From contig JAAOMT010000633.1 in NCBI GenBank assembly GCA_016748015.1, forward strand, positions 97,023 to 122,237: a stretch of DNA of 25,215 nucleotides, given 5' to 3'. Below are positions 2,648 to 23,566 of the stretch, in pieces. Source of the stretch: Geosiphon pyriformis. Taxonomy: Eukaryota; Glomeromycota; Glomeromycetes; Archaeosporales; Geosiphonaceae. Numbering within the stretch: position 1 is the first letter of the stretch; every line of letters begins with the position of its first letter. Below the pieces are notes generated by a model. It was given only the letters and a program-made list of their open reading frames with translations, made no database searches and was not told the DNA's origin. Position numbers and translations under genes: made by a program.

Positions 2648-2768
2648 TTGTCGGGATCCCTTGACCACGATGAGAGCAAGAAGTTTACCAAAAAAAATAG
2701 CTTTTCCCCTTTATTTCTCACCTTTAGTTTTGGTAGTTATTTCTATTCTTATATATTCTTTTATTGTG

Positions 2769-4703
2769 ATGGATCTGATAGGCTTATTTGTTGGTGGTTC
2801 TAGTTCTGTTTTGGCTGGGTTGGGAACCCGGTCTAATAATAAAAAGAAAGCTCATGTTGAGAGTGTGTACTCTCATGGCCCTTTGTACAAGAAGCCTAAG
2901 ACTCTTGGGGCTTCCAATGGTACTGTGGACTCATCAACTGGTCCTATTGCTATCAATGTATTACAAGCTGACGACATGGAATGCAAGATGTCTTGGAGTA
3001 GTAAAGTGAAAAGCAAGGATGCTAGTGTTAGTGGAGTGTCTGACATTGAAAACATAAATAATATGGTGGCTGAAGAGACGAGTTACGTGGATTCCAATGA
3101 CTTTGAAGCAGACAATATGGTGGACAATACAACTCTGAGAAAGACTCAAACGAGGATGTATGTTTTGGGGCAGCCACCAAAGAAATCTTCTTTCAATAAT
3201 GCAAGTAACATTGATGATGTGCTGGAGCTTTCTTCTCACACATTTAATGGATCCAATCAATTGCCACTGGTTAAGTTATGTGCCTTAAAGACTCATAGCT
3301 TTAATTCGACCAAGTCTTTTGCTTTGGATGTTGAGCATTTTGCTATACCTGGCAATTCTATTAGTGAAAAGTTAATTTTTTTAAAAAAATTTTTTATCAA
3401 GTTGATGGCTTTGGGAGTGCTTTGACTCTCTCAAAATTTCCTGGAATCATAAGATCGACCTTTACAAGTGAATTTAGTTTGAATAAGGCCAAATTAATGG
3501 CAATCAATAAGAAAGTTGTTGTCAATACTGATTTCAGAAAAGTAAACAGCCATATGGATCAGAAGATAATCATCAAAAAGATCTCAGTAGATCTTCCCAG
3601 ATCAGCAATTGAGGCAGTGTTTTCCAAGTTTGGTAAGATTATTTCTGTTAAGTTGCAGCTTGTTGGTTTTTGGCAAAAGACCCTGGTGGAATATGAATCA
3701 TCTGAGATGGCTGATTTGGTCGCAGCTAGATGGTCTGTGCTTGTAGGAAAAAATTCTGTTCATGTGGTGAAGGCAATTAGTGATAAACAAATGTGGATAT
3801 TGAGGGATCAACATCAAGTGTTGTTGTATACCTTACCTGTTGGAACTACAGCTCATGATCTCTCTGGTTTATTTGAATCATATGGTAGGAAGACTTGTTT
3901 TATTGGCCATAATCCTTTCTTGTATGTTCATGATTGGTGTGCTGTAATCTGTTTTGAGAATGAGACATCCAAGTTGGCTGCTGTTGGTTTGATTCCAGTT
4001 TTTAAGAGTGTGAATTTGCACTGGGCTGGTCTTTGTTTGGCATATTGTACACAGTGTACACATTTTGGTTATATTACTGCCAACTGCTCTGTGAATGGGA
4101 GTTCTGGAGTTCGTGAGAGACAAATGGTTTCTGATCAGAATTGTGTTTGTCTGGCTGTAATTTATAAAAAGAAATCAGCTTCTGTTTCTCGCCTGATTTT
4201 GTTTGGTGGAAGAACTTGGATGTTAGTGGTTGGTGTTCCTTCTGGTGTTTCTTCTCGTCGATAGGTTTCTCCTTCTGGTTCCATTGATAATGGTAAACCT
4301 CTTCCTCCTGTTGTAAATAATTTGGAAAAACAGTTGGTCAGCATTAAAAGCAGTCTTGTCAGCCTCATGGAACAAATTGGTGAGTTGGCTAAGAGATTGG
4401 AGTCACTCATGCTGGCAGTTTCCCAGCCTAGCCCTGAATGTCAGCTGTCGGTGACCCCCCCCATCACAGAATCAAGGGAAAGATATAGTGATGGGAGTAG
4501 GTTTGGGTGAGTCTACTTGTAATGAGACTGCTGTTGCTACTGCTACTGCTACTTATACTGTGAAAAACTTTTCCATGTCCCCCCATATTGTCAAGTTGGA
4601 AAATATGTTGGAAGGTCTTGCTGCCTCAGTGCTGAGTTTGTCTGCTTGTTTTAATGATCTGGCTCTAGCTGCTGGTACACTTTCACAACCCCCTTCTCAA
4701 TGA
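2769..4703 (+). pseudogene. LINE ORF1 (RRM-like, CCHC knuckle, coiled coil), frameshifted
   Basis: I choose ATG 2769 (MDLIGLFVGG). The related minus-strand element aligns there with ATA in place of ATG, and earlier codons look like 5' UTR. The frame is 2769-~3383, then shifts. The homopolymers at 3376-3395 are one base shorter than in the relative, and the protein continues in frame from 3383 to the TAG at 4262-4264 (probably an old CAG). It reads on to about 4455, shifts again near an eight-C run (4455-4462), and ends at TGA 4701-4703. An acidic/Ser-rich N-terminus is followed by an RRM-like region (~3560-3800). A CCHC-type knuckle (Cys 4046, Cys 4055, Tyr replacing His at 4070, Cys 4085) and a Leu-rich predicted coiled coil (~4322-4420 and ~4590-4670) follow. 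It would bind the element's RNA. Three lesions make it non-functional. Confidence 0.75.
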
Positions 4704-5386
4704 GTAAGTTTACTTGGAAGATTGCTATATGCAATATTAGAGGAATGAACAATTGTGTGAAACAGGCGAACATTGTACATTGGCATAATGATATGAACAA
4801 TCTGATTTTTATTGTTACTAAGACAAAATTGAAGAGAAAAATCTGCCTCTGAATTGTGGATAGGTTTGCTGGTGTTCATGTTTTTACTTCAAGTCTGAAT
4901 TCTGGTCACATGAGATCTGGTATTGCAATTATTATGGACTCATCTCTGGCAAAACATGTGTGCAAGGTTCTAAAGATGCCTGGTTGGCTCCTGTTAGTAA
5001 AATTGTTTTTTAGGAACAGACTCTTTGTTTCTATTTTGGAGCTGTATGTTGGTGCTTCTTTAACAGTTTGTTTTTCTCAGGCTGATGAAATTAATTTTCT
5101 CATTGCTAAAGCTGTGAATGAATTCTTTCTCGTTATTCTTGGTGGTGATTTCAATGAAAACAGATCTCACAAGTGTGCCAGTTTCAAGAAGTGCTTTGAT
5201 TTGGGTTTGGTCAACTCTTTGGGTGGGAGCTTTTTTAATAAGTTACCAACTTGGTGTAATTCTCATGGTGTTGCTAAGACAATTGATTATGTGTTTCTTT
5301 CTTTTAACTTGGTTAATGCAATCATGGATCATGGCATGTTAGATGTTGGTGATTTTTTTGACACTAATTATAAGGCTGTTTTTGTT
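4700..5386 (+). other. ORF2 domain: APE-type endonuclease, active site degraded
   Basis: Recognisable blocks are ICNIRGMNN near the N-terminus, IVTKTKLK, GGDFNEN (residues 148-154) and TIDYVF (194-199). FFDTNYKAV ends with Tyr at residue 224. In active APE-type LINE endonucleases these positions read E in the (T)ETK block, D-x-N in GGDFN, and D-H in the last block. Here GGDFN is kept. The Glu is Lys, and the final Asp-His is Asn-Tyr (AAT TAT at 5366-5371). Each change is a single G-to-A or C-to-T step. The domain should be catalytically dead even without the stops. Confidence 0.75.
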
Positions 5387-6196
5387 TCTGTGGGTCTGGA
5401 TGGTTTGTTGGACACGAGACTTTCTTCATTACATAAGCAGACCAACAAAGATTGCTGGAAGTTTGATGTCAAAGATGTGAATGAGTTGAAGTGGATTGAG
5501 TTCAGAGATGGTACAGCTGCCAATGCTTCTATGTTTTCAGATGCATTTGTGGTGGCTGGGAAATTTTCGGATTTGGATGTGATGTGAGACATTATTTGCA
5601 AAATTATAATTTTTTCAGCAGGTGAAACTTTCAAGAAAAAGTGGTTCAAAGGTTTTGACAGTGTTTTCAATAAGGTGTCTTTTAGGTTTCATAAGCTGAA
5701 GTTGCTGGTTTCTAAGCTGGTAAAAGCTTCCCATTTGATTTCTGGGGGTGATTTTGCTCTGTTGTTAGATATGTGAGACAGGCTTGACTCTGTTGGCGCT
5801 TCGTCAATAAAGTTTTTTTTCCATTCAGGGTCTGGTTTTGATGGTATTCACTCTGAGCTGGCTAAGGCAAGGAAGTCTTACCACTCTTCCAAAATGCTGG
5901 AATCTAAGCATGCTGAGAAATTGTGTATAAGACAAGCCATTGAAAATAGGATAGAGAGTTTTGAGTTGAATAAGGGTCATACTATCAGAAGTGTTTTGGA
6001 GTGTCCATTTTGCAAAGTAGTGTTGGATCATTTGATAGTGGATAATGAGTTGGTTTTGGAACCTGAGCTGGTTAAATCTAAAGTGGACAGGATTATGGAG
6101 GGATGAACTAGGAGACGGTTGGTGGTTTCGGACTTCTCTGATAATTGGAAATGCCAATTTTGGTCTTTGGACTACGTTTTTAATGGTGTTTTCTCT

Positions 6197-7400
6197 GGTA
6201 TTATGAACTCAATTAGTTTTGATGAGATGTTCAGTGTCATTTCGAGCTTGCTTAATGGAAAAGCAGCTGGTTTTTCTGGCATCTCTAATGAATTGTGGAA
6301 GCATTGCAACAGAGTGGTTCTGGATATGCTTTTGGTGCTTTTGAATCTCTGCCTGATTTGTGAATCAGTGCCTAGACCTTGAAAGGAAGCCTGGGTTTTG
6401 ATGATTCCTAAACTCTATAAATGGAAGGGTGTTTTCACAAACACCCATCCTATTGTTTTGATTGAAACAGCCCACAAGATCCTTTCCAAAATCTTATCAG
6501 ACAGAATATTTTCGGCTTGCAGTGAGTTTGACATTTTACATGGGGACAATTTTTTTGTTTTAAAGGGTACGACTATGCAGTCACACATTTTTGCTGTTGG
6601 TTCTATGGTCAAGAATGCCTTAGAGAAATACAGAGAGCTGTGGCTGGTTTTACAGGACATACACAAAGCATATAATTCAGTTGGTTGGAAACATCTTAAG
6701 AGGAGTTTGATCAGGATCAAAATATGTAACAGATTTATTAGATTTTTTGGTAGCATCCACAATAATTGCAAGAACAGAGTGATGACAGATTTTGGCTTAA
6801 CTAGTGGGTATGTGGTTCATAATGATTTGGATTAGGGTAAAGTTTTCTTGCCACTTTTCTGGCACATATTTTATGATTCACTTATGTGTGAGGTCAAGAG
6901 ACAAAGAGAGGTGTGTGGTTACAGGTTGAATTTGCATTTCGTTTCCAATACTGGCCATGTAGAATCTCAGGCTGAGTTGACATCATTTTTTACTGCTGGT
7001 GCTTTTATTGATGATACCATCTGGATTGGTAGCAGACAGGCTGCTACACAACACATTTTGGACATTGCTAGTAAGTTCTTCAGGATTAATGACATTTCAA
7101 TTAACAATGACAAAACTGTGGCTATTCCCATCAACTGCCAGGTTGAGACCCCTTACTTAACTGTTAGTGGCTCACCTATTTCCATAGCCAAAAAGGGTGA
7201 ACCTCATTGTTATCTTGGGATTTTTTTGTCTTCTAATAGTCTTTTAGTGCCCAGTTTGGCCAAGACTTACTTGGACATCCGATTTTTTGTCAACCTTGTT
7301 CTGAAAAAAGCCATTTCAGATAAACAATTTAGTTATTTGGTTTTTGCTGTTCTGTTCCCTATTGTTAGCTACAGGACTCAGTCCAGTTTTGTTCCTATTA
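6197..7400 (+). other. ORF2 domain: reverse transcriptase
   Basis: Blocks appear in order. KAAGFSGISNELWKH lies at ~521-535. FVLKGTTMQS follows. LQDIHKAYNSVGW is motif A, with the metal-binding Asp at residue 653 (GAC 6656) kept. NRVMTDFGL comes next. FIDDTIWIG is motif C, with the Asp pair at residues 771-772 (7010-7015). DISINNDKTVAIPIN and a YLGIFLS thumb-region block end the domain. All three Asp of the polymerase centre survive, although stops at 6380 and 6833 interrupt the domain and 7415 lies just past it. The F-x-DD form and YLGIFLS are typical of non-LTR rather than LTR reverse transcriptases. Confidence 0.88.
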
Positions 7401-8095
7401 GTGTGTGTAATAAATAGAATGCTCTGATCTGCAAAGGCTTGAAGTTTAAGTCTGGGCTGCTGCTTGATTTCTCCAATGATGTATTTTATCATCCTTCTTT
7501 GTATGGTTTGAAGACTTTTGAACAGATTTAGACAGAAAGCAAATTGGCCTCCATCATTGCTTTTGCAAATTTAGTTGGTGTTTTGGGCTGCTTATTTTCT
7601 CACAGGTCTCATGACCTCCAGGTTCTCAGCTGGCATTCTCGTCATCCCTTGCTGTTTCTGGCTTGTGTTAATATCAGTTCTTCAAATAATTTCTTAGCAG
7701 ATGTGGTTCGTATTTTTTTTGGATGTGATCTGTTTCTGAACAGGTCTCTGGTCTGTGCTTTCCGTCATCAGGGTGGTACTTCTATGTCTCTTGTTCTTAG
7801 TAAAATCAATTTTCTAAAATGTGTCTCTTCACTTAAGTAATATGGTATTGCTTTTGTGGAACAATTACGCAATTGAAATAGTGTTGTTTTTAGTTGGCAG
7901 ACATTCAAGTGTTGGAAGAAGTTGGACTCCTGTGGCCCAATTTCTTTCTGGTTTGATCTTTCTGCATGTTTTCTTGGTGGTGTTGCTTCTTTTTCTGCAT
8001 GCTCCTCTCTTGTAAGAGATTTTGCTCTGTCTGATGTTTGTTAATCTCATGATTTTGGTGTTATCTGTGATGATCTATTGATTACTGACACTGTC

Positions 8096-8500
8096 TGCCT
8101 TTCTGTATACACAGATGAGTCTCTGAGTGGTTTGGGAACTGTTGCCATAAAAGCTGAGACTGTGGTCTTTTTTGAGAACATTAATTCTGGTTTAGATGTG
8201 GGGGTGTCTGGTTTGGTTTCTTCTACTTTGTTTGAATTGCAGGCCATTGCTTTGGCTTTTGAGTGTGTTCCTTCTTCTTGTGTGGTTGATTTGTTCTCAG
8301 ATAGCCAAGTTGCTTTGGATGCGTGCAAATTGGAATCATTATTGGCTTGTTCAGACTTCAGAAATTGTTGTTGGATAGAGCATTATCATATTGCTAATGT
8401 AGTTTGTCATAAGAATTTAATTGTAAATTGGATTAAAGTTAAGAGTCATTCAGGCATTTTGGGCAATGAGCATACAGATAAGCTTGCTAAGGATGCAGCA
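8096..8500 (+). other. ORF2 domain: RNase H type 1, all acidic residues kept
   Basis: The domain reads VYTDESLSGLG (Asp 1139, GAT 8114), ELQAIALAFE (Glu 1179, GAA 8234), DLFSDSQVALDAC (Asp 1201, GAT 8300) and KVKSHSGILGNEHTDKLAK (His 1250, CAT 8447; Asp 1260, GAT 8477). This is the full D-E-D-(H)-D set of type 1 RNase H, in an open stretch from 8078 to 8644. It is the best-preserved enzyme domain in the window. It would remove RNA from the RNA/cDNA hybrid after target-primed synthesis. Confidence 0.88.
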
Positions 8501-8779
8501 CTCTCTTCTTGGTATTTGCCCCATTCGGTCAATAAACATTTTTTGAGGGTTGGGGGCAGTGTGGTTTCTGGAAATTCTAGGCACTTTGTTCGTAATGTGT
8601 TTTGGTCTATTTTTTATGCACATTGGAAGGTTGGTTCTGGTTCCTAGATTTTGGTGGCTGGTTTGCATGATGGTGTTAATTGGTCTAAGTCTTTTTTGGT
8701 TTGGCACCCTGATTCTCACTTGGCTGCTGGTTTTACTAATGCACGTACTGTTGGCCTTCAGACATACTTTATGAAATCT

Positions 8780-8900
8780 TTCTATTATCAGCTTTCTGTC
8801 GCAGTGCATAAACATTTGTATGATAGATGCTATTCCAGTATGATGTGTTTGTTCTATGGTGATATGGAATTCCCAGACCATGTCTTCATTTGTCTTTTTG
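8780..8900 (+). other. ORF2 C-terminal Cys/His zinc finger
   Basis: CLFYGDMEFPDHVFIC (8846-8893) has Cys 1383, Tyr 1386, His 1394 and Cys 1398. The matching block in the minus-strand LINE (VLCFYCEEIESFNHFFVY, about 14040-13980) keeps the second Cys but has Tyr for the last. Together they imply an ancestral C-x2-C-x7-H-x3-C finger, as in the zinc-binding domain that follows reverse transcriptase/RNase H in many LINEs. It probably helps bind target DNA or RNA. Confidence 0.65.
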
Positions 8901-9388
8901 ATACTGCTGGTCATGCTCGGTTGTTGGATGCTTATGTGTCTTTTTGGGAAACACGGTCTAGACTCTCTCATTCTACTTCGTGTGTTTCACAGTTGTTGTC
9001 CTCTTGTTTTTCCAATACTACTATTAGTACTACTTTGTATAAGAGTTTTGTTTTCAATGATTGGTACCATGAATTCTTTTTGGTCTTTAAGAATGCTAAA
9101 GTTGTGGCTTCAAATATTGTGTGTTTTGTGTGCAAGTTTTGCTCTGCATTTTGCAATGAGTTTTGGCTAGTCTATGCTAAACACTGAGCTTTTATGGAGA
9201 AGAATAGACTTATTTCTCATGATAGTTCTATTCTTGCCCTGGTTTCTGGTTTATCTACAGTGCTTTTGACTGGTGTAATCAGATTGTTGAGTGTTGTTAA
9301 AGCTTTTAGTATTGGTTTCGGTTTTTATAAATCTTGTTTGTTTTTCTCAAGTATAGGGGATTTTGTCTCTGTTAGAATAGATGCGTAG

Positions 9389-9529: not shown

Positions 9530-11090
9530 CTTTAATTCTAAATTGAAGTATTAAATACATACTATTTTTTATATTATACAAGTTAAAAAACAAAATATAT
9601 TTTATCTTAAAAAAACAAAAAAACCAATTTGTTTAAAAAAAAATTATATAAAAATTATGTAAATTTTATTTAAAAACAAGACATAAAAAAATAAACAAAA
9701 CTTATAATGTAATATAATATTAATTTAATTTTTTATATAAATAAATACTAATAATTTTTTATTTATAAATTAAAAATAAATATATTTGAGTACTTAAAAA
9801 TTTAATAAAACAGTTTTGTTTTTACTATATTAAATATATTAAATAATAATCTTTAATTTAATTAATAGCTACAAATCTGATTTTAACAAAAAATTTTATG
9901 TATTATTTATGTGTAAATTTGGTTAATATATACAATTAACCAAATAATTCTTACAAATATATTTATTATATTTGGAATTATTTTACAAATTTTTTTTAAA
10001 CTACAATTCTTTTTTCTAAAGAAGCAAAAAAAGTTGCAAGTTTTTTTTTTAACTTTTTATTATATTTAAATTTCCAATTATTTTTTAAATTAATAATAAA
10101 AAAGAGTTTACAGCTAAATTAATCAAAAAATTAACAGAAATATAGCCAATTATTTATATTATAAATAGATATACAAAATATTTTTAATTTTAAAGATTAA
10201 TTAAATGAGCAAATAATATATTTTAACAAAAACTTTAAAAATAAATAAAAAATAAAAGAACTAATAATTAGTTATATAATTTATATTAAGTAATATGTAA
10301 AAAATATTATTTTTATATTGTTTAAATTTTTTAAATAATTATTAATTTTTTTTTATTCATTTAATAAATGAAACCCAAATGCCACTGTTACCAATAGAAT
10401 TTTAGCTACTAATTAACATAAAATTACCTTTCTAATTCGTAATATTAATTAGTATATATTATTATTATTTCAATTATCATGTATTAATTTATCAAATTAT
10501 CAAATATTATTATTCAATTAATAACCCAATTTGTACTATAGAAATTAAGATGATCAAATTACACAATATCCTAAACCATTTAATATTCAAAAATTTACCA
10601 AAATGAATAGAAATTGGCCGAAATAATCAATAGTTAGTAGAAATAACTTGTAGTTTATTAAAATGTATCTTTAGTTTGCCAAAATTATAACAAAGAGAAA
10701 AGTACAAGTTTAAAAATTACTACAACAAATTATATAAAAGAAAAGCTTTTTTCTTTAAGAAAAATATACCTTACTTTAAATATCTTAATTAAAACAAATC
10801 ATTCCTTACATATCTTTAAAAAAAATTAAATAAAATTAAATATTTAAAAACCAAATTCTTTAATTATTATACTTAAAAGTCCCAAAACCCAACTAAAATT
10901 TTGAAATTGATTAGCTACCAATTTCAATAAACTATTAGTAACTTTAGGCCTGGATAGAAAATGATTCTCTTAATAAAACTTTATTTCTTTTATATTTTTT
11001 TTATTTTTTTTTTATTTTTTTATTATAAATTATTAAGATAGCCTATATATGAGATTCCTGTAGAAGAGTTGACTTCTATAGCAAAGTAAC
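9530..11090. other. Gene-free AT-rich region
   Basis: Both strands are dense in stops, and I recognise no protein, RNA gene or element end. Local simple patterns occur, for example atcaaattatcaaa near 10490-10505 and long A/T runs throughout. The stretch 10370-10960 is slightly less AT-rich, with short GC-containing words, and may be the worn remains of an older element. I cannot assign it. Confidence 0.5.
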
Positions 11091-11092
11091 TA

Positions 11093-11113
11093 TAGTGAAC
11101 TCTCTCTATAGTC
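11093..11113 (+). repeat. Left terminal inverted repeat
   Basis: TAGTGAACTCTCTCTATAGTC mirrors the right end (13144 down to 13124, CAGTGAACTCTCTTTATAATC). The 21 positions differ at four sites, and all four are C/T or G/A transitions. It is flanked outside by TA (11091-11092). Confidence 0.7.
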
Positions 11114-11292
11114 TCTTTGATTATAGTTACTATTTTTTTATAATCACATTTTTTTAAAAACCAAAACCATTTATATATAATATTATTTCCTTATAGTCAC
11201 CTTTACTATATATATCTCCTTATAGTTCTTATCTCTACAAATATGATAGCAGAATATAAATAATTTCTACTTTCTATAGTCACACTATAATT
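11108..11292. repeat. Left subterminal cluster of TATAGT(C/T)AC-like motifs
   Basis: Variants of tatagtcac recur in this stretch: tatagtctc, tatagttac, tataatcac, tatagtcac, tatagttct, tatagtcac. They appear again next to the right end (tatagttct, tatagtcaa, and inverted at 13121-13137). A longer direct similarity links tatagttcttatctct...acaaatatg at about 11222-11247 with tatagttctatctctct...acaaatatg at about 13075-13109. Repeated subterminal motifs are usual transposase-binding sites; that role is inferred. Confidence 0.5.
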
Positions 11293-11306
11293 ATATAATA
11301 TTAGAT

Positions 11307-11483
11307 ATGAACATCAGATGTCATTTCATATTTAATCAGACATGTAAGATACCTCAGATTATAAAAGGTGTTCCAAATATTATTTTAAAATGTCGACATT
11401 ATTTTGCATTTAAGTATTGCAATAATAAGACTTATATTAATCTATCATTGTTTGCTTTATTCATTAATTTATTATTTTATTAG
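11307..11483 (+). CDS. Short ORF of unknown function (58 codons)
   Basis: An uninterrupted ATG-to-TAG frame inside the pogo-like element, upstream of the 51-bp repeats. The product has Cys/His-containing segments (IRCHF, QTCK, LKCRHYFAFKYCNN) and a hydrophobic end (LFALFINLLFY). The Cys-rich character resembles the downstream 17-residue repeats (for example WCNNCHNY), so it may be the 5' part of the same captured gene. I do not recognise the family. At 58 codons in AT-rich DNA, chance is a real alternative. Confidence 0.3.
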   Translation: MNIRCHFIFNQTCKIPQIIKGVPNIILKCRHYFAFKYCNNKTYINLSLFALFINLLFY

Positions 11484-11561
11484 TATAATTTTAAAAGTTA
11501 CAACAAGCAAATTGGTGTAAAATAGCATGCTCTGCTTTGTTTTGGTGGCAAATATTGAATA

Positions 11562-11980
11562 ATTGCTCAAGCCACTAAGTAAATTTATTTAGTATTGGTG
11601 TAATAATTGCCATAACTATCCAAAAGTAAGTGAAGTAAATTATCATTGTTACATTAATTGTCAAGGCTATCCAAAAGTAAGTAAATCTGATTATTATTGT
11701 CATATTGATTGCCATAATTATTTAGAGATAAGCAAATTTGATTAATATATTCATGTAGATTGTCATAGCTGTCTAAAGATAAGTAAATTAATATTGTTGT
11801 ATTGATTACTGAAACTATCTAAAGGTAAGTGAATCTGATTATTATTGTTGTATTGATTATTGAAGCCATTAGGAAGTAAGTGACTGAATTATTATTGTTG
11901 CATTGATTGTTAAAACTATTGGGAGGTAAGCAAACTGAATTATCATTGCCATGTTAATTGTTGTGACTGTTTGGAAGTAT
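11562..11980 (+). repeat. 51-bp tandem repeat encoding a 17-residue Cys/His unit
   Basis: Eight marker positions (the T of the gtaag/ataag word) fall at 11627, 11678, 11729, 11780, 11826, 11877, 11927 and 11978. The spacings are 51, 51, 51, 46, 51, 50 and 51. A further degraded copy starts near 11562. In frame, clean copies read like GYPKVSKSDYYCHIDCHNY, that is C-x3-C followed by H/Q-x-Y-P-K-V-S. A period of exactly 17 codons and conservation of Cys, Tyr and Lys-Val-Ser show it once coded for protein. Stops (TAA, TGA, TAG) and the 46- and 50-bp units break the frame now. The family is not recognised; paired Cys could bind metal. Confidence 0.6.
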
Positions 11981-12007
11981 TTTTTAAAAATGTAAAATCT
12001 CGAATTA

Positions 12008-13003
12008 GATTTTTACTATCTATTCTGTTTAAATACTGGAAACTCTGCAGCAATAAATAAATTAGGAAATTGTTACTTTTATAGCAAAGGTGTTAATCAA
12101 GACATGGGTTAAGCTGTCAAATTATATTAAAAGACAAGTGATGTAAAAAATTCTGCTACAATGAACAATTTAAGTTATTGTTATCAGCATAACAAAGATA
12201 TTAATTAGAACAAAATTTAAGGGGTCAAATTATATCAAAAGACTGTTGATGCAGAAAATTCTGAAGCAATGATTCGATTAGATCATTGCTATCAATATGG
12301 TAAAAGTGTCAATCAGGACATGGATCAAGCTATCAAATTGTATCAAAAAGCAAGTGATGCAGAAAATTCTGAAACAATGACTTGATTAGAACATTGCTAC
12401 TTTAATGGCAAATACATCAATTAGAACACAGATCAAGCTGTCAAATTATATTGAAAGATGGCTGATGTAGAAGATTCTGAGGCAATGAATTAAATAGGTT
12501 ATTGCTACTTTAATGGCAAATGCATTGATCAGAACATGAGTGAAATGGTCAAATTTTTTCGAATTGTAGTTCTGAATAATAGTCAAATGTCAGCTCATCT
12601 ATTAGATATTAAACAAGAACTTCTACAAGAAGTACAAGTTCTTATTGAGCATATTGATATTAATAAGCTATTGGCAATAAACTTTATTAATATTGACAAG
12701 TTTGAATCATTATTTATTTATGCCTCAGAAGATGAAATTGTGGATCTTATTAACAACAAGTATAGTAGAAATTTTAATGCAAATGAAGATTTAGAAAGTA
12801 AAGATGAAGATGAGTCTTTGCCTTTGCTATCTACACATCAAGATAAAACTGCACTTGAAGATACATTGTGCTATTGTGAAGAACAATATAGTAAAAAAGT
12901 TGATTCAGACTTTTTTAAAACTTTAAGAACATTAATTCGTAATATTGTTCTCAAAGTTCAAAAAGAGAAAAAACAGTTGCAAATAGATAGCTTTTTTAAA
13001 TAA
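12008..13003 (+). pseudogene. Sel1-like repeat array fused to a pogo/Tigger-type C-terminal tail
   Basis: One frame runs through the region. From ~12047 to ~12600 there are four to five Sel1-like repeats of 36 codons (108 bp), visible as AMIRLDHCYQYGKSVNQDMD, then QAIKLYQKASDAENSE, then LEHCYFNGKYIN and IGYCYFNGKCIDQNM. Seven or eight stops interrupt them, mostly readable as old CAA, CAG, CGA or TGG. The stretch 12536-13003 is stop-free (155 codons). Its last part contains LLAINFINIDKF, an EDEIVDL block, an acidic SKDEDESLPLL stretch, a helical region and the end KKQLQIDSFFK. That order (INID, acidic linker, helices, K-Q-x-x-IDSFF) matches the C-terminal tails of pogo/Tigger transposases as I know them. 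Sel1 repeats are helical protein-binding scaffolds. The join is around 12600-12650. No catalytic DDE core is present. Confidence 0.6.
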
Positions 13004-13084
13004 AATATATATAATTGGTTATTATATTATACATGTAATATATAGATCATATAATAAAATATTAATCATTTTTTATAGTTCTAT

Positions 13085-13137
13085 CTCTCTATAGTCAACA
13101 CAAATATGCTGACCAAAAAGTGTGATTATAAAGAGAG
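13085..13137. repeat. Right subterminal inverted repeat (foldback)
   Basis: ctctctatagtcaacaca (13085-13102) is complementary, with small mismatches, to tgtgattataaagagag (13121-13137) around an 18-base loop. The outer arm is part of the right terminal repeat. Confidence 0.6.
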
Positions 13138-13144
13138 TTCACTG
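13124..13144 (-). repeat. Right terminal inverted repeat
   Basis: Read on the minus strand it begins CAGTGAACTCTCTTTATAATC. It is followed outside by TA (13145-13146). The outer part also folds with an inner inverted copy at 13085-13102. Confidence 0.7.
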
Positions 13145-13146
13145 TA

Positions 13147-13375
13147 CACATTTTAGTAAGCTTCCAAATGAGCAATTTGTAAGAAAAAATTGATCTTTAT
13201 TACAACATAATTACATAAAATAACTGGCAAGAAATTGGCTATTCCACTTATAAGCCCATCAATTCAAATTATAGAAGATAATTTAAAGATAAATTCAGTT
13301 ATCAGAGGTTCTATTACTTCCAAATAACATAAATTTACATCAAACCAATATTAACAACATCCAAAAAAAAAGACC
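13147..13375. other. AT-rich spacer between pogo-like element and minus-strand LINE
   Basis: No coding frame or repeat is recognised. A nine-A run at 13362-13370 probably lies near the 3' end of the minus-strand LINE, but no clean tail or target duplication is visible. Confidence 0.4.
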
Positions 13376-13390
13376 AAAAACTTTCAATAA

Positions 13391-13480
13391 TACTACCTAG
13401 CACAATATATCAAATTAAATAATCTAAATTAAATGCAAATTATGTATTTTTTATACATAACCAGCCATTCAAACTGATTA
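13391..13480 (-). promoter_or_regulatory. Conserved LINE 3' tail (copy 3)
   Basis: On the minus strand this reads GAATGGCT, then a TACATAA block, ATTTAATTTAGATT, GATATATTGTG and CTAGGTAG, in the order and spacing of the tails at 300-211 and 9396-9480. It sits directly after the ORF2 stop at 13489. Confidence 0.65.
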
Positions 13481-16400
13481 AAACAACACTATAAATCTAT
13501 TTTAACAGATATTACAGTATTAATACCAGGAAATAAACAGCAAAATTCACAAAAACCAAAGCTAAAACTATGTACTTTAACAATTTTAAATAACTTAACA
13601 ACTCTAATAGAAAGCAAAGACAGCAGATTATGAACTTTAGGAAGCACAAAACCATCATGTTCAATTAGGCTTTTTCTCTCTATAAATTTTCTGTATTTAG
13701 CCCTTACTATCTAAATTTCAGTATGGTAAGCTGTTCTTAAACTTCGCACAAAATTCACAACTTTTTTACTGACAACCTTAACATCATCAAAAATAGATAT
13801 AGTTTCCAAGTATTATTCTTTGAATAAAAAATTTTTACACAATACAGTATACACAACATCATCAAAAATACACAAAAAAAGCATATATAAAACCCAAGAT
13901 AATAGTAGACTCAAACTTAACATAATATTTCACTGAATCAGAAGCAACCTAAGCAAGTCTTTACAAACTTTAGAGTCTATTATATACACAAAAAAGTGAT
14001 TAAAACTTTCTATTTCCTCACAATAAAAACACAATACACTAAGATACTTCTTATAATATAAACACTTCTGAACAGTAACCAACAGACAACAGTACAAAGT
14101 CTTTATAAAATATGAATACAAATCAGTTGTAGACTTATTTGTAAAACCAGCTATTATATACAAATTAAGATATCAAACCAAAACAATACAAACTCAGTCC
14201 ATATTATCAACCAAGCTTTTGTTAATAATACCAGATTCAAATCTGACCTTCTAACAAGCACAATAAACAGTTCTAAAAACTCCACAAGTAAAATAATGAA
14301 TATTTTCAGATACTATCACCTTATCAGCTCTAATAAATTTTTCTCTGACAAAAACAGGAAGTACCAAATTTGAATCAGCAATCAAACTGGCCAGCTTATT
14401 AGCATGTTTATTGCCCAAAATACTCGAATGTCTTTTAATCTTGCACTAAAAAATATTAAGTCTCTTATTTCTAATAAAATTCACAATACTCTGCCTTTTT
14501 ATTTAGCAACAATTGCAAAAATCTGGCAAAACCAAATCCAACTTCACAGCAAAATATACAAGACTGTCTGACTGTTTAAATACACTATAACAGAACTATT
14601 AGCAGGAATACACTCCAAAGCCAAAACAATTGTCTGCAATTTTATTATTGTAAAGGAAACTAATCTACTAATATTAATACCAACCCCTATATTTAAGTCA
14701 AAAAAATGCAGCTGCACTATATTTTATCTTATAAATACCCAAATTTTTCAAAAACCTATCTATATAGACACTAATAACATCCAAATTCACATCAGAAATA
14801 CACTGCATCATTCCAAAAATGCTATTAGAATTGCAAATATTCAAAAATTGAAAGCCAAAATCAGATAATTCAGTAGAAAAAAGAGATACAAACCTAATTA
14901 AAAAATTACATGTTAATTTGAAACAGCTAGAGACTAAACTCCTTAAATTAAGCCTTTTTCAATGACAAAAATTTTTTAATTAAAGACCAACTCTTTTTTA
15001 TCATACAATTAGTCAACAAACACAACTTCAAACTTCATAAATAAACGTGAAATATAATAAAACTTTGAATTATCCAGAACATAAAACATTGGAATATTAC
15101 TCAAAAAATAGAATATAGACAAAAAATTGTTGTTAAGTGACATATCACAATCCAAAAATATTCTCACTACACCAACTAAAAAATTGTTAACTGAACTAAT
15201 TTTTAGCTTTATAGAGTAATGTAAAAAGTAAATAAGAAATCAACTCAAAACCTATAAGTCTAAAAACTTATAATTAAACAGACAACTAAAAATTCCACTA
15301 GCATTTAAAAAATTCAACACAAAAGCCATTTTACTCTCAGCTTGTAATTGTTCAAATGATTTCAAACTATACAATAATGGATAATAAAAAGCCTTGTTAA
15401 AAAAGTCTTTTAGTAAATCAGCTTTTATCTTCAAACTTTTTCTTATTAGTGTATTTTACTTAATATATATACTCTTAAAAATAAAATTAAACTGAGTTCT
15501 ATAACTGATTATAGACTATAACACAACTGAGACCAAATAAAAAAACTGTTTGTCTAAGATAGTCTTCTTTAGAACCAAATTAACAAAAAACCTGATATCT
15601 AAATGAGTCTTTGCCAAACTGGGTTTAGACAAATCTTTAGAAGACAAAAAAATATCAAAATACTTATAAGACTCTTCTTTTCATGCAATTAAAATTGACA
15701 AACCACTAATTAATAACAAAAAATTTCTGCTTTTTGATTAATAAAAATAACTACTGTCTTATTATTATTAATTAGAATATCATTGATTATAAAAAACTAT
15801 TTACAATGTTTAGAATATATTGAGTAGTTGTTTGATTATTTTCAACCTAAATTGTGTCATTAATAAAAATTTCAACTGCTAAAAATAAAGTTAGTTTATC
15901 CTAACTCTTCAATTTGTTAGTTTTGACAACAAACCTAGTATCAATATAATAGTCACACAAACTTTCCTGCCATTTGACTTTATATAAGAGAAGATTATAA
16001 AAAATCTTTTAGAACAGAAGAGAAAAAATTTTACTCTAGTTTAGACTATTATGTACATAGTACTCATTTGTCAAACCATAATTAGTCATAATTTAATTAA
16101 TTCTATTATTATAAATTTTTCCAAAAAATTGAATAAATTATTTGCACATTTTAATCTTAACCAAACTATTTCTTAGAAGTTACCAACTTACAGAATTATA
16201 AGCCTTCCACATATTTTATAAGACTAATTAAAGTTTACAGTCTTTTTTCAAAACATTTTCAATTATTAAACCAATGGCAAAAATAAGAGACTGAATAGTA
16301 ATATCTTTTAACACAGAAAAATTGTCATCACAAAAAATATCAAATTTACTACAAGCCAAAGAGATTCTATTGGAAAGTAACTTAAATAGAATTTCTTAAG

Positions 16401-16929
16401 TAATCTTAATCAATGCAATTCTTTTAATATTAGTCAGAACACTTTTCCACTTATATGGCTTAAAAATTATTAACACTTAAGCTTTTTTCTAAGATTGAAG
16501 TACAGATTTATGTACTAAACAAAGATTCAAAAAGTTCAAAAGCATAATGAATATCAAACTGTCACAATGTCTTTATAGTTTATTTGTAATACCAAACAAA
16601 CTAACAGTCTTTTTATCAAGTAGGTTTTTGATTACACACACTAAGTTATTATAACTAATAATATTTATAATATCAAAGAATACAATATTATTAACATGAA
16701 CCAAAGACAGATATTAATGATATCACAGATTGAAAATATTATTTAACACTTCCTTCTTTCTTGTTCAACTCTCCATAATAGTGTCAACTTTAGATTTAAT
16801 TTCAACAGAATTCAAAATCAAATTACTATTAGCAATTAAATGATTCAATACTATTTTATAAAAAAAACACTCCAATATACTTTTGATTATATGGCCCTTA
16901 TTAATAGTGTTACTGAAAGATTTTCACAC

Positions 16930-18340
16930 TTTTCAATGCAAAAATTACAACACATACAATAAAAATTAACATTAAAATCATGCAAAAAAAAACCTACATT
17001 ATTGCACTTAATCAACAAAATCAGCCAACAATCTGGAAATAAATGATCAGCAATCAATCCAATTACAACAAAGAAATATGGCACAATCCAACAGTTTAAT
17101 TAAGTTGGATACAAAAAAATCTTGGCAAACTAAGAAACACCAATGAAAATGAATGATTGATGCATGTAATCAGATAACAACAGATTTTGTTATGCTCCAA
17201 AATTTTTATACACTCTTATTAGAACAATTTAACATTCCAGATCTGCAATCAATGGTTAAAAGTAGTTACCAAGAAATGTAATCAATTAATCTACTTCTAA
17301 TTATGTTGATCATAATTACAATTAGTATCATTGATTTACAATCAATGTTCTAGATTCAGCCATCTAAATCTGATCATCTAAATTACTAGCTCTTAGATGA
17401 ATAACAGACTAAGTAAGCTTATCATAAATTGATTAATTAAATGTATATAAATAATTGATGTATTTTAAATAGTTCTAATATAATATGTAGATTTGATATA
17501 ATTTAGCTATATATACAGCCTCTTTGTCAGCTCAAGAAAGTATTAGTTCAATACTGAGCCAACTCTTCACTATAGTTTTATAGTAAGCAGTTAGTTCTTT
17601 CCTCTACTCCTTACACTTTCTCTCCCCTTTTTCTATGCTCTAAATACTTGTCATCATAATCTCAAGTATGCCTTTCCATATTTCTTATCACTATTTGGAA
17701 TCACTTTATTTAGAACTTCTTACTTACTTGTTAACAAAATTATCAAGCTTTCTATTACTTCTGATCTTTTAAATCATGTGTTATCATCATTTCACATTAA
17801 GCCTTGTTTCACCAAACAAGTTGTTAAATCTAAAAATAAGTAATAAAGTATCACATTGTTAAAGAGTAGTCTCAACAATAAAAAGTTTAAGCAAAATCTA
17901 TTTCAGTTATGTTTGACTTTCATAATTTCTTTTATAATTTCTATAACTTCGTTTTTAAAGTAGGCATTTGAATACTACACCCTTTTGACGACTAATTGAA
18001 AAAATTCTGGTTATGATTTTCTTAAGTAGTTTTGGTTTCTTTTTGTTGCTGGTTACATTTTTAATATATATAAAGAGATGTGACTTCTCTTTTCCCCTTT
18101 TCAAATACCTAAGACTGGTTCTTGTCCAAAAACAAATAATAATGACAATACTTTCTTTCACTTTTAATGACCTTATTACATACCCCTTTTGCTCTCCCAC
18201 CTACTGAAATAGTCCATACATTCATGATATGCTATAGTCAGTAGCATAATCATGGTAATGTGTGTTCCAGGTAAAAGTTATTGTTATTAATAAGAAGTTA
18301 CAAATTCATAGCTTTCATCCGGTAACAACAGTAAAGCTTT
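16930..18340. mobile_element. Unidentified ~1.4 kb insert within the LINE ORF2
   Basis: LINE homology breaks after RIESF (minus strand, near 18345) and resumes at NTINKGHII (near 16905), so the sequence between is foreign. It has a different texture: repeated caatcaat words at about 17050-17345, a TATA motif near 17508, a pyrimidine-rich stretch at 17585-17640, and no long coding frame. The right edge reads ccggtaaca, an LTR-like ending. A solo LTR is one reading. The edges are blurred: similar ctttactg and ctttcagtaac words flank the two sides, but I cannot define a clean target duplication. Confidence 0.45.
17507..17521 (+). promoter_or_regulatory. TATA-like motif in the insert
   Basis: gctatatatacagcc stands out from the surrounding sequence. 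A GC-richer leader-like stretch (ctctttgtcagctc...) and a pyrimidine-rich tract follow within about 130 bases. This layout is like the U3/R region of an LTR or a Pol II promoter. The assignment is by appearance only. Confidence 0.3.
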
Positions 18341-19591
18341 CTATTCTTTTGTTGATAGCAGATCTAATATTTATCTCCTCAGCTCTTAAAAACTTAGCAA
18401 GTTTACAGGCACAGTATGACTTTCTTGTGCCATAAAAAACAGATCTTATATGATCAAAATCAGCACTTAAATCTAATAAAACTTAAATAATCAAAGCCTT
18501 ATTATTGTTTAAAGATGCCCAATAACTTATCAAGAAAGTAAACTTGCCATTGAGACCTATTTATAAAGACTTTACAATTTTTGAAACCAAAATTTCTAAC
18601 TTATAAAACCTAGAAAAATCTTTTATAAAAACACTATCAAAGTTTTTAAATCATTTTTTCTTAAAAATTTCATTGGCTAAAAGACATACTGTTTTGTGAA
18701 CAGTATTTTACATTAAATTCAGATTTAAAAACCTTTTGAACATAACAAACTCATTAAATAACAATATTGCATTAGCCATTATAGCATCTTTAAACTTATT
18801 CTATTTTTTTTTATCAGCATTTTTAATGTTAAATATTCAACAATTTTTATTCACTTGCTTGCACAGAAGATTCAGCTGCATATCTAACAAATTACCTAAA
18901 TCTACAGAAATAGAAATGGCCTAATGATCAGTGTAAAATAATCTTTAATGTTTACAATATTATAATCTATTACTGTATTAATTAAGTTTAAAGAAACAAA
19001 CACATAGTTAATTGTCTTCATAACACTCTTAAAATTTTTTCAAGTCAATGTTTTTGCAGTTGAGCTTCTGGCCAATAAATTAACCAATCTCAAACTAAGG
19101 CATCTCTTAAAACTAGCACATTTACAGGAGTTATTTTTATTAAAATTACCACCCAAAATAACAAAAAAAAACTTATTTACAGTCTTTGCAATTAAAGAAT
19201 TAACTTTATTAGCCTGAAATAAACATACAGCCAGTATTGCACTAACATACAGCCCCAGAATTAAAACAGAAAGTCTATTTTTAAAAAGCAAATTGACAGA
19301 GAAAAAGTGATCAGAAATCTCAGAAATCTTATATATATGTTATGCTAAGACAATATTCATAATAATCACAATACCAAAACCCAAATAATCAGAGTCTAAA
19401 CTAGAAACAAACACACAAACACCATTAAACTTATCAGCAATCTATAGACAAATTTTCTTCTTTAATTTTGTTTTAGTAACAATTAAAATTAAATTGTTTG
19501 TATTTTTGTGAATGAATAATATTCTTTTGTTTTGCAGGATTGTTTATATCTCTAATATTGCACATGACAACTTTCTATATTCAATTAGTTA

Positions 19592-21483
19592 TTAATAAGA
19601 AAAAATATCCAAGCTTAAACCTTTATTGTCTAATTTGGCCAATAATTTTATAATCATATTCAATAAATTACTTAACTTTTCTTTAAACTTCTTAATAGTT
19701 AATTGATCTAAAAATATTACTCTTACCATAGTCTTACTACAAGTAACTACATCCAAACTTTCACTTATTACTTTATTTGCTCCTTGATACTGTGATGAAA
19801 AAGCAATCAATGGCTAACATTTAAGGCTAGACTGGAAAACTGTTGGCTTAAATACATCTAACCTCTTAGCCAGCTTACTAACTTGCTCTACAAGGCTAAC
19901 AAGACTGTACTTAAAAGCAACAAACCTGTTATTTATGTCCAAAAAAACCAGCAGGAGAGATTTTGCATCCAAAGATAAACTAATACCAGAAAAAACTACA
20001 GACACTACACAAAAAGAGAAACTATTAACAACTTAAACCCAAGTTTTACTTTCAAATAAAACTGAGCAAGCAATTAACATCTGCTTTTTTTTATATATAT
20101 TCACTAGATGACTTTGATTCTGAGAATATATTATCTGCTTACTGTGATTACTAGAATTCTTATTCACTAAACATATATTAAAAACATGACCAAATTGTTT
20201 ATACTAAACACAACAGACTAAAAAAAAACCAGTCCAACACAGATTTATATTCTTAAAAACTAGAACAAAACTAATAACAATCTTCTTAAATGTCTTATCT
20301 CCAGAACAAACCACAACATATCTATTATACACATATGAATTTAGATTATGACTAATAAAACAAGTCTTCTTATTATAAAATTCTATTAAATCAAAAAAAT
20401 CATAAGCTGTGATGCTAACTGACAAAGTGTATAGCAAAATCTAATACTGATTTTTTAATACCCATAACTGCTTATTATTAACAACTAACATTATTCATAC
20501 AGAATTTTTATCCATGAGAACTGATCACTTAAACACAACTAAACTAGCAACCTTAGATAACTCAAACTCAACTAAAGTCTTTTGCCAATGACTAATTAGT
20601 TGCATTTTAATTAAAACTATTTTACCAAATTTGAAAAAAACTGATTTTATAGCCAATTTGAAAAGATCAACCAGAATCTCTTTAACAATAATTTTCCAAT
20701 TTATATGGTTGTTTGTTTTTTTAATATCAATATTAACAAGAATTTTTTTACTAATAACCAATTTTTTAGCCTTTTGCAAACTCAAATTCGAAATAAAAAA
20801 ATACCTAATTATCTCTAAAAATTTTGAAGAAGTAGAAACTTCTCCAAAACTATCAATTCAATAAAAAATTTTCTTAATTACAATCAATTTATTACTATTA
20901 GTTTTGTTTAATACAGCAGATAACTTAATATTTAACATAAAAAATTTAATTAGCTTAAAATTGCACCTATTTAGAACATGTGATCTGACTGTTAGCAAAC
21001 ACTTAGTACCAGAAAACTTAGAAACTAAAAGTGTCAAAATATTATCATTATTATTACTTAAATTGTTAAAAGAAATCTTCTTTGGCTGGCTGTCCAAAAC
21101 ATATGTTTTAGTATATGTTTTCTTAGATGTAATATTATCTATTATATCATCAACTTTTAAAGCATTTAAATCTGTATAGCTGGTTTTTTCTGCAACTGTA
21201 TTTTTTATGTTTTTTAGGTCTGATATATTACTAATACTGCTTGTTTTGTTGTTCACTTTGCTGCTCCAAAATCTTATAGACTTGTTAGTAATTATATCTG
21301 CAAGATTCAGAAGGCCAGCAGATATTTCAACCATATTGTCAACAATAATAGGTTTCTTGGGTTTTTATAAGATGCACTATGCAAATAAGTATTCACTAAA
21401 TATTTGGTTTTGACACTAAACTGAGTTCTCAACTCAGCCAAACTAGATACTAATTCACTAACAAAAAAGTCTACTGGTTTTAT
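19592..21483 (-). pseudogene. Decayed ORF1 of the minus-strand LINE
   Basis: This aligns block by block with the plus-strand ORF1. PVDFFVSELVSSLAELRTQF lies near 21478. AEKTSYTDLNALKVDDIID and KTYVLDSQPKKISFNN lie near 21180-21080. KLIVIKKIFY lies near 20885. KIIVKEILVDLFKLAIKSVF, FKFGKIVLIKMQLISHWQ and KTLVEFELSKVASLV lie near 20690-20540. LLYTLSVSITAYDFFDLIEF lies near 20435, and SLVSLVEQVSKLAKRL near 19900. The start codon position (21483-21481) reads ATA where the plus-strand copy has ATG. At KKIFY (near 20865) it has one more base than the plus-strand copy, which identifies the frameshift there as a deletion. Several stops are present. No intact product is possible. Confidence 0.75.
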
Positions 21484-21560
21484 AGTTACAAACAAAGATA
21501 TGCTAAAAAAAATAATTGTAAAAATAAAGAAGATAAAGAGTAAAAAAAAATTTTTATAGT

Positions 21561-22036
21561 AAAAGATTTTGAATTAATCAAAATATTTCAATATTTAAAT
21601 CCCATTTTTCAATCTGTTTGTGCTGATATAATTAAGAATAGAATCATAAAATTCTATGTTTTGGGTAGACAAAAATTAAAAATAAGCACTATCTTTATTA
21701 TAAAATATCTTTTTTTTTTTATTTATACTTATAATATGATAGGCATATTTAAGTATTATTAAGTCCAAAATTTTTTTACATTAGATTTTTGGACATCTTC
21801 TAATAACAAAGTTTTTGTTTTTATTACTATCTATTATATTAATAACAATTAAAATCTTCAATAAACAATAATTAATTTTGGATTAATAAATAAACAACAT
21901 AATAAAATAAATATTACAAATAGATTTTTTAAAATATTAAAAAATTATAAAATTACATCAAAGATATATATGTATATTTTTACATGAATTTGGGTTAATT
22001 AATAGCTAATAATGAAATTGACATATCATATAACAT
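21561..22036. other. AT-rich region with a short inverted repeat
   Basis: No gene is recognised. gtccaaaa at 21763-21770 and ttttggac at 21787-21794 form an 8-bp inverted repeat with a 16-base loop. They could be facing ends of small elements or chance in AT-rich DNA. Confidence 0.4.
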
Positions 22037-22260
22037 ATTAGTATCATTTGAGATTCAGAGTTAATATAGTGTTCATATTATCAAAAATTGTATTTTGTTA
22101 ATATTGGCTTAAGTTGGTTTTTATTATTGCTCCAAAGCTGAATTTTTGGTATTAGTATTATCTAAGACTTAGAATTATTACAGTGCTTATATTTTTAAAA
22201 ACTGCATTTTTTTAATATTAGTTTAAGTGATTTTTATTATGTTTTAAGCCAAATTTTTAG
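22037..22260 (+). repeat. Tandem duplication, two diverged ~114-bp units
   Basis: The unit starting attagtatcatttgagattc (22037) recurs as attagtattatctaagactt (22151). The two stay collinear to their ends (ctgaatttttgg and ccaaatttttag). Shared words include tagtgttcatat/cagtgcttatat and ttaatattggcttaagt/ttaatattagtttaagt. Most differences are C/T or G/A. No function is recognised. Confidence 0.7.
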
Positions 22261-22732
22261 CCAAAAAGATTAAGAAAAAAGTTTAAGAAAGAATTATATT
22301 TATTTTCTTTTTATACAAGTTTACTATTAATTTTATTAGTAATAATCTAATTTTTTTTGACAGCTTTTTACTATTATCTTTAATAATATTGCAAATAATA
22401 GTACTTTTGTAAAAAAACTAGCAAAAAAATTAAAAGAAAAAAACATTTAATAAAACTCAAAAAATCTTTAATTTTAATATTTTGATTATATTTTAAACTT
22501 AATAGTATAGATGATTTTAGATAAAATAAAAGATGATGTTTTCAAAATATTTGTTAAAAACCCAAACTGAATATATTTACTTAAAATTTTCTTAATATAA
22601 ACTTGGTAGAAATTAAAAATTAAAAAATTTAACTTTGTAATTTGTATCTTGTCTCAATATTTTAAGCTCTTTGAATATATTTATAATACATGTTAAATTA
22701 AATACTGTAAATTCATTTTGAATTATTCTATT
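22261..22732. other. AT-rich region upstream of the hAT remnant
   Basis: No readable protein is recognised. It may contain unrecognisable upstream parts of the hAT transposase gene, which in an intact element would extend more than 1 kb upstream of the recognised segment. Confidence 0.4.
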
Positions 22733-23566
22733 TGGTAGAATTTTATTTATAACATAGTCAAAAATGAATTATCTTTTAAATTAACAAGTTATTTATTTCT
22801 AAATTTGTATATTTTGAATACAAAAATTATAATTGTAAATTTATAAGCATTAAATATTCTTACTAGCACTTATATTGACCTCTATTAATATGCTATTTTA
22901 TATAATTAGTGGGCTGTTTTCAATAAAATTGCTAAATTTCTTGAACTATTTAAGAATATTATAGTTAAAATATTAGCCAGTTCAAATAATATTGCATCCT
23001 TGATTATTTCCTTCTTTAATATCATTTTTAATCATGTTAAAGACACAGTTAATAATAATAAATTTAGTAAAGCATTATAATTTTAATAGTTATTTATTTA
23101 ACATATTTAATATTAAATCTATTACTTATTACAACAAATAGAACAATAAGAGAAAAGTTGGTTAAATATTATTCTAAAACAAATACAATTATAATACTTT
23201 GTATTGCATTGGATCCAAGGAGAAAATTCAAGTATTTCACAAAGAGAAAATTTTTGAATAATAATATTAATAAAATAAAAGAATTATAAGTTATTAATTT
23301 ATTTAAATAATTTTATTTTTCAATTCTTACATGATAAATGAATCTTTAAAATACATACTCTCTTTGAAATAGAGTACATATTAAACATTATATCAACATT
23401 AAATGACAGTTTTTTGTTAAATAACAATTTTAATAATACTATAGCATCAGTTATATAATTTATATTAAAAACAGACTTTGACAATAACAAAAAAAAAGAA
23501 CTTAACAAAATTAATTATTATATCTCTAAAAAAGTGGCCAATAGAAAAATAGATGTAATAATATAG
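22733..23566 (+). pseudogene. hAT-family transposase remnant (C-terminal half)
   Basis: In frame from TGG 22733, W*NFIYNIVKNE matches the hAT RWNSTY-x-M block. In the same frame, WAVFNKIAKFLELFKN (from 22910) and ILASSNNIASLIISFFNIIF match the E-W...L-x-P-F and following blocks. After a frame change, REKLVKYYSKTNT and ILCIALDPRRKFKYF (23149-23289) match the hallmark hAT K-YY-x-K-T...LDPR-x-K-x-x-x-F segment. A last piece, KELNKINYYISKKVANRK (to TAG 23564-23566), may be the E-L-x-x-Y-L region before the dimerisation domain. Internal stops and at least one frameshift make it a dead copy. Intact hAT transposases are about 600-800 residues; only about the last third to half is visible. Terminal repeats and an 8-bp target duplication were not found. 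Confidence 0.62.

Follow-up and report, generated by a model that had tools for sequence, protein, structure and literature searches.

The window (the whole stretch of DNA analysed, 25,215 nucleotides) contains, at 11093-13144, a 2,052-bp element bounded by terminal inverted repeats (TIRs) and flanked by TA on both sides. The features of the element and its target site are the following.

10693-11092: left half of the target repeat (dispersed, ~1 kb long), extending over at least 400 bp
11091-11092: left TA target duplication, a single TA in six paralogous empty sites
11093-11113, plus strand: left TIR, based on arm alignment, other copies and the end-pattern scan
11093-11346, plus strand: 5' end common to copy types A and B (element positions 1-254), stopping at the TA of 11345-11346, the start of the type A foreign module
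11576-11979: 51-nt tandem array (earlier 'Cys/His repeat'), also present in all six older relatives compared, which have no Sel1; doubtful as coding sequence
11982-12570, plus strand: left part of a Sel1 gene fragment, a pseudogene with 108-nt (36-aa) repeats; left edge approximate
12570-12571: internal-deletion junction between Sel1 and the transposase tail, with ~2 bp of microhomology (TT, by eye), identical in the C316, C389 and C64 copies
12570-13003, plus strand: C-terminal tail of a pogo transposase, after DDE_1, in frame with Sel1 (ORF 12536-13003)
13004-13144, plus strand: 3' end of the element, from alignment to family copies
13124-13144, minus strand: right TIR, on the same three grounds as the left
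13145-13146: right TA target duplication, a single TA in paralogous empty sites
13147-13395: right half of the target repeat, with crossing matches in the empty sites

The two arms, with their TA counted (11091-11113 and 13124-13146), are identical at 20 of 23 positions, and none of 200,000 random pairs drawn from the window match as well. The genome searched comprised 124.7 Mb in 406 contigs. A degenerate end pattern including the TA found 96 forward and 100 reverse matches (196 in total), while the control pattern, read backwards, found none in either direction; the two controls rule out a chance origin of the ends. Among the 100 end-pattern places listed, 78 form 39 inward-pointing neighbour pairs (at any distance), including 24 of 4.18-4.37 kb, two of 2.05 kb, and one of 1.75 kb. 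Another orientation is seen in three pairs of neighbours less than 30 kb apart, and 22 places are unpaired. In the family copies compared, whose end coordinates were placed from alignments, the outer TA is present at 18 of 18 left and 16 of 16 right ends.

The unit itself is repeated in the genome, with at least 51 matching pieces when 40 of 224 candidates are scored. Within this sample, two full-length matches exist besides the window copy (C389 and C64, 89% identity), nine rows match the left 1.4-1.5 kb, and in 20 the match is confined to the right ~575 bp, although one of these (C257:174044) ends a longer copy whose left part is matched as well. Copy counts for this class and for the other large one (40 of 132 candidates scored) are, consequently, lower bounds.

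To look for paralogous empty sites, the two flanks of each of 20 family copies were joined so as to leave a single TA, and were compared with 44 loci and the window, all from the same genome. The joined flanks of the window copy are crossed at six places in five loci (L023, L038, L039, L041, and twice in L042), with 76-80% identity and a single TA. Because six paralogous places run through the joined flanks, the element is seen to sit in a ~1-kb dispersed repeat, and its insertion is thus demonstrated within one genome. These sites, together with the pairing of the same ends at other places, rule out that the two ends belong to different elements. The joined flanks of other copies are also crossed (L006 at 77%; L010 and L035r at 74-75%), and several further ones at 64-76%, some gapped at the join and not counted as proof. 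The imperfect inverted ends with outer TA described in the first-pass annotation are, therefore, real, and its conjecture that such units are multi-copy is borne out by the paired ends, their TA edges, and the presence of the same cargo and a transposase region in longer copies. As for the dispersed repeat (window ~10693-13395; L023, L038, L039, L041, L042), it seems itself to have inserted into L023 and L038, both of them pogo copies.

The window locus has a counterpart at C164:45700-69000, aligned over window positions 10520-23653 (at least 13 kb, ~94% identity), with differences that are mostly transitions (~16:1). Its flanks beside the pogo element are 94-96% identical to those in the window. 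Owing to these shared flanks, it is taken as a duplicate or diverged haplotype, not as an independent insertion. A 10.2-kb Gypsy-like LTR element is nested in the Sel1 part of this copy (L019/L020), with 878-bp LTRs that are 92% identical and an apparent dUTPase segment (labels by eye). By arithmetic only, the pairs of pogo ends separated by 14.4 and 24.6 kb may contain this insert once or twice. Elsewhere in the window, two strongly diverged copies of LINE-like ORFs occupy 2661-9187 (plus strand) and ~19040-21334 (minus strand), with putative endonuclease, reverse transcriptase, and RNase H recognised by eye.

Copy types, transposase and inserted modules

Four kinds of copies, A to D, share the same ends. 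Type A (4.25-4.27 kb, four measured) consists of element positions 1-254, a segment of ~1.92-1.93 kb, and a transposase region with HTH_Tnp_Tc5 and DDE_1. It is the common form, its segment having 132 candidates, of which 40 were scored. Type B (4.25-4.4 kb, four measured) consists of positions 1-254, the 51-nt array, a Sel1 region, and the same transposase region. A 481-bp cargo stretch that is missing in the window copy marks this type at nine places (all nine candidates scored). Type C (2.05 kb) includes the window copy, C389, C64, and the C164 duplicate, and corresponds to type B with one deletion, while type D (1.75 kb; L007, L008, L009, and L023 with a further ~1-kb insert) corresponds to a different deletion of type B.

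The transposase was recognised by HTH_Tnp_Tc5 (PF03221; 1.3e-15 in one type A copy, 2.4e-16 in the consensus), which is absent from the window copy, and by DDE_1 (PF03184; 1.5e-31 in one copy, 1.5e-34 in the consensus). There are 31 residues between the second and third D (DD31D, D residues chosen by eye), and phmmer matches the transposase to CENP-B and Abp1 structures. In the consensus of type A, 20 of the first 23 positions of the two ends agree. A set-back consensus was also built, by changing T to C or A to G wherever C or G is retained in two or more copies; it leans to open frames and to C/G, and is thus conservative for the remaining stops, but inflates C>T counts made against it, as in the type P comparison below. 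For type A, it gives 519 codons counted from the likely start, and a single stop remains. No stop-free match covering the full 231-aa N-terminal part of the transposase was found among the 150 scored of 270 candidates; the open matches in this sample are fragments or more distant relatives (37-58% identity), and the pogo family looks extinct in this assembly. Between types A and B, the transposase consensus is 98.2% (set-back) or 94.1% (majority) identical over 2,088 bp, with 37 or 123 transitions, respectively, and zero transversions. Since they differ by transitions only, A and B are almost one and the same element, distinguished by their modules.

The alignment to long copies is consistent with the lack of an HTH or DDE core in the window copy, and its pogo/Tigger-type C-terminal tail, as first described, is the end of the transposase found complete with both domains in those copies. 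The 155-aa tail ORF by itself has no Pfam and no PDB match. The proposal that the catalytic core was replaced by cargo fails, as the longer copies hold both cargo and transposase; the core was lost by one internal deletion, common to three insertions. The type D junction has 3-4 bp of microhomology, by eye (placed by alignment only in L023), and is out of frame (also by eye), so that the in-frame fusion of Sel1 and tail seen in the window is not conserved. The C junction is common to three places and the D junction to four, with differing flanks, which suggests that each deletion happened once and that its product then moved. Types C and D can be accounted for as simple internal deletions of type B.

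The type A segment has a different history. It matches loci outside the pogo family at 85-88% (six compared, L039-L044); the match ends at A2180 in six of six, and the three reaching the left side stop at A253. At this position, the foreign sequence starts with TA followed by CAGTCAGGGA, exactly on a TA that belongs to the pogo sequence (window 11345-11346), and in those three outside loci TA precedes the same start. This shared start indicates that another TA-flanked element probably inserted there, whose far part would then have been deleted along with the array. These loci, with type A A253-2180, form a second TA-flanked repeat family with the end TACAGTCAGGGA; the four ORFs of the type A module yield nothing above the Pfam cut-off. 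The region before the transposase thus takes three forms, namely, the bare array, the array with a gene fragment, or a piece of another TA-flanked repeat, and nested insertion followed by deletion can, accordingly, mimic 'gene capture'. Overall, the family shows two unusual module replacements, and the window copy is a deletion derivative.

Origin of the Sel1-bearing copies

The 51-nt array had been annotated as a 17-residue Cys/His repeat carried as cargo. The tandem array is real, but a protein is doubtful: in the consensus with C>T set back, the plus strand is open for 50 aa and the minus strand for 122 aa, and a Cys/His domain was rejected, with no Pfam match above the cut-off and reading frames against it. 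In one copy, L010 (C138), positions 977-1342 of the turned sequence are likewise open for 122 aa on the minus strand.

A search with the array led to seven further loci, six of which (all except C315:688713) were compared and constitute the type P relatives. Their aligned parts are ~70-79% identical to type B, and in four of them most differences from the set-back consensus are C>T or G>A, a direction towards which this consensus itself leans. In all six, the alignment passes from the array end straight to type B position 2094 or 2185, and in place of the ~1.2 kb of Sel1 cargo of type B there are 3-87 bp; in most, this spot is taken by other sequence of up to ~90 bp, which is alike among the loci. 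The transposase region is partial or absent in L027 and L026. As the array occurs without Sel1 in all six older relatives, it looks native to the element family, and Sel1 is probably, and most simply, a later gain, with the reservation that loci found through the array carry an ascertainment bias, so that missing Sel1 could reflect loss instead of the ancestral state.

The cargo has about eight Sel1 repeats, more of which, together with further cargo, are held by type B copies than by the window copy. Sel1 (PF08238) is matched at 2.7e-39, in five stretches, by the consensus of 13 copies with stops read as Q or R; the decayed window copy alone gives no Pfam Sel1 match, and the Sel1-like repeats first seen there were nonetheless correctly named. 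A stop stands at one codon in 16 of 16 aligned copies and at another in 15 of 15 (nine of type B and seven of types C or D, counting the C164 duplicate), and a frame change is present in the sixth repeat of the nine-copy type B consensus. The Sel1 fragment was, therefore, broken before amplification. In the same genome, Sel1 constitutes a large family of open host genes. Among the matches listed (150 of 799 candidates scored), these are 26-45% identical to the cargo at the amino-acid level, with the best at 42-45%, and no close donor gene was found. The 18 best cargo matches (70-82%), all with stops, lie in family copies, C366:1407671 being left out of that placement, and the ~480 bp of cargo beyond Sel1 have no match outside type B. 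That such units are a route for shuffling and spreading Sel1 families, as had been suggested, is not supported, given the early breakage and this low identity, on which latter ground the window element was also rejected as a source of host Sel1 genes. The results speak against an origin of the large Sel1 family of this genome from such elements.

The explanation we favour, with a probability of about 0.85, is that the unit is a non-autonomous, internally deleted DNA transposon of the pogo superfamily, which arose in the order P, B, then C or D, and was moved in trans. The starting point would be an element with TIRs, the 51-nt array, and an HTH_Tnp_Tc5/DDE_1 transposase (type P). One lineage would then have gained ~1.2 kb, including a Sel1 fragment presumably derived from a host gene, between array and transposase (type B). 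Type B would then have undergone two separate internal deletions, with 2-4 bp of microhomology, giving the 2.05-kb type C, to which the window copy belongs, and the 1.75-kb type D. As both keep their TIRs, a transposase acting in trans could have carried them to new TA sites.

Alternatively, the Sel1 region could be an original accessory gene of the pogo family, lost by types P and A, instead of a captured host fragment. The constant position of the cargo in the examined type B copies (nine cargo places in all), the absence from type A of the region neighbouring Sel1, and the failure to find a close donor among the scored host genes would all fit such an origin. It is, nevertheless, unlikely, given that the older loci skip the cargo, mostly with mutually alike sequence in its stead, that Sel1 is a large open gene family of the host, and that the amplified copy was already broken. 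Pack-TIR capture as first proposed, with Sel1 and the Cys/His array both taken directly into a non-autonomous element, would explain a gene fragment within TIRs in several copies without a catalytic core, but is highly improbable, since the same cargo lies beside the transposase, in the same flanking sequence, in type B, the array is present in relatives without Sel1, and simple deletions account for types C and D. What endures of the first-pass reading is a multi-copy pogo-like element with a Sel1 fragment within its TIRs and no core, without the core replacement, the Cys/His cargo, or the Sel1 spreading. With the deletion-derivative origin, the 2-kb unit is settled as a decayed, internally deleted transposon, together with its route of origin.

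Decay of the family

Among the 419 singleton changes in eight type A copies, 359 are C>T or G>A, a count from which sites changed in several copies are discarded by the singleton rule. These affect 5.3% of C/G sites, whereas the reverse transitions affect 0.14% of A/T sites; transversions number 30. Rates are 0.053 in CA, 0.052 in CT, and 0.059 in CC contexts, indicating no dinucleotide preference, and the pairwise transition/transversion ratio (Ts/Tv) is 27.1. The pattern is weaker in thirteen type B/C/D copies, where 67 of 115 singletons are C>T or G>A (89 transitions versus 26 transversions); compared with their majority consensus, these copies show 1359 transitions and 62 transversions.

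Similar ratios are found between the LTRs of the nested C164 element (22) and in two donor-family pairs (20 and 45). Two sets of values weaken the decay reading, namely, 2.4 and 6.8 in the 1-kb target repeat, and 1.2-2.7 in old LINE pairs of 65-71% identity, although the latter are low partly because saturation at such identity lowers the ratio. For host Sel1 genes (at least 75% identity), there are 102,674 transitions to 113,705 transversions (~0.9; 838 overlapping alignments pooled), a rough control, as 25 of 25 alignments listed pair up repeats within just two genes (L055, L056), which are under coding selection. DNA_methylase (PF00145) has ten matches in the genome, some in open frames: C318:788280-789372, C318:820713-821336, C96, C307, C327, C346, and C355.

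Repeat-induced point mutation (RIP) requires a sexual cycle and a RID methyltransferase, and has a CpA dinucleotide preference in Neurospora. In type A, C:G>T:A changes occur on both strands of a repeat, as in RIP, and the Neurospora-type CpA preference is not seen; the decay thus resembles RIP without dinucleotide preference, for which reason dinucleotide-based RIP indices probably miss it. Tentatively, an active or recent repeat-directed C-to-T hypermutation of this kind may have killed the pogo family together with the Sel1 cargo and young transposons nearby, but spared the intact Sel1 genes. Passages of the literature describe RIP signatures as undetected in Gigaspora margarita (PMC8647823) and report RID in the clade of arbuscular mycorrhizal fungi (PMC8298701); among the titles listed, with passages of these two papers and of PMC13297926 consulted, none announces RIP in such fungi. 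If true, and if the host is an arbuscular mycorrhizal fungus, which its numerous Sel1 genes suggest, a RIP-like process would exist in a group in one member of which, Gigaspora margarita, it went undetected according to the passages of PMC8647823. The decay pattern is the more valuable by-product of the analysis, as a RIP-like process in this fungus becomes directly testable.

Comparison with known systems

In passages of PMC7386202, the pogo superfamily is described as having TA target duplications in most families (TAA or TAAA in many Fot and Fot-like), TIRs of at most 40 bp in most families, lengths of 1.2-5.2 kb, an HTH-type DNA-binding domain (HTH_Tnp_Tc5 being listed), and DDE_1 with DD29-56D. 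The present element shares the TA duplication, the short TIRs, both domains, and parents of 4.25-4.4 kb, and its DD31D spacing falls within the Tigger, Lemi, and pogoR ranges and outside the DD35D of Fot given there. It is assigned to the superfamily by these features (TA, TIRs, domains, and spacing). Unlike in other pogo elements, the stretch between the left end and the transposase is occupied by a Sel1 fragment or by part of another repeat, and, unlike its parents, the window copy keeps only the transposase tail.

Tc1-Mariner families have been reported in Rhizophagus irregularis, a possibly related fungus, in which expanded genes such as Sel1 may harbour partial transposable element insertions, according to passages of PMC11075540. 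Sel1 sequence is likewise associated with transposable elements in both cases, with element pieces inside genes in R. irregularis and a Sel1 piece inside an element here. Sel1-type expanded genes were excluded from the element analyses of PMC11075540, and the words 'pogo' and 'Tigger' are absent from the texts of this paper and of PMC8647823. On the capture of genes by fungal pogo or Tc1-mariner elements, paper titles and passages of PMC10853768 yielded nothing useful.

Pack-TYPE transposons of plants, as characterised in passages of PMC8903248, are alike in having TIRs, a target duplication, and a coding-gene fragment multiplied with the element. The packFinder tool sets apart elements with a transposase match of more than 250 bp as autonomous or autonomous-derived (PMC8903248, same passages). 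Going by that description, the window copy differs from elements without transposase, since 434 bp of tail are kept (12570-13003) and type B has the whole region. The fragment here adjoins the transposase in longer copies, the short form is a deletion product, and no close donor gene is at hand among the host Sel1 matches listed, perhaps because the donor has diverged or been lost.

Internally deleted non-autonomous derivatives form a general class, in which both ends are kept, the middle is lost, and several copies have one and the same junction. The window element is alike in all of this, with the difference that its retained middle includes a gene fragment.
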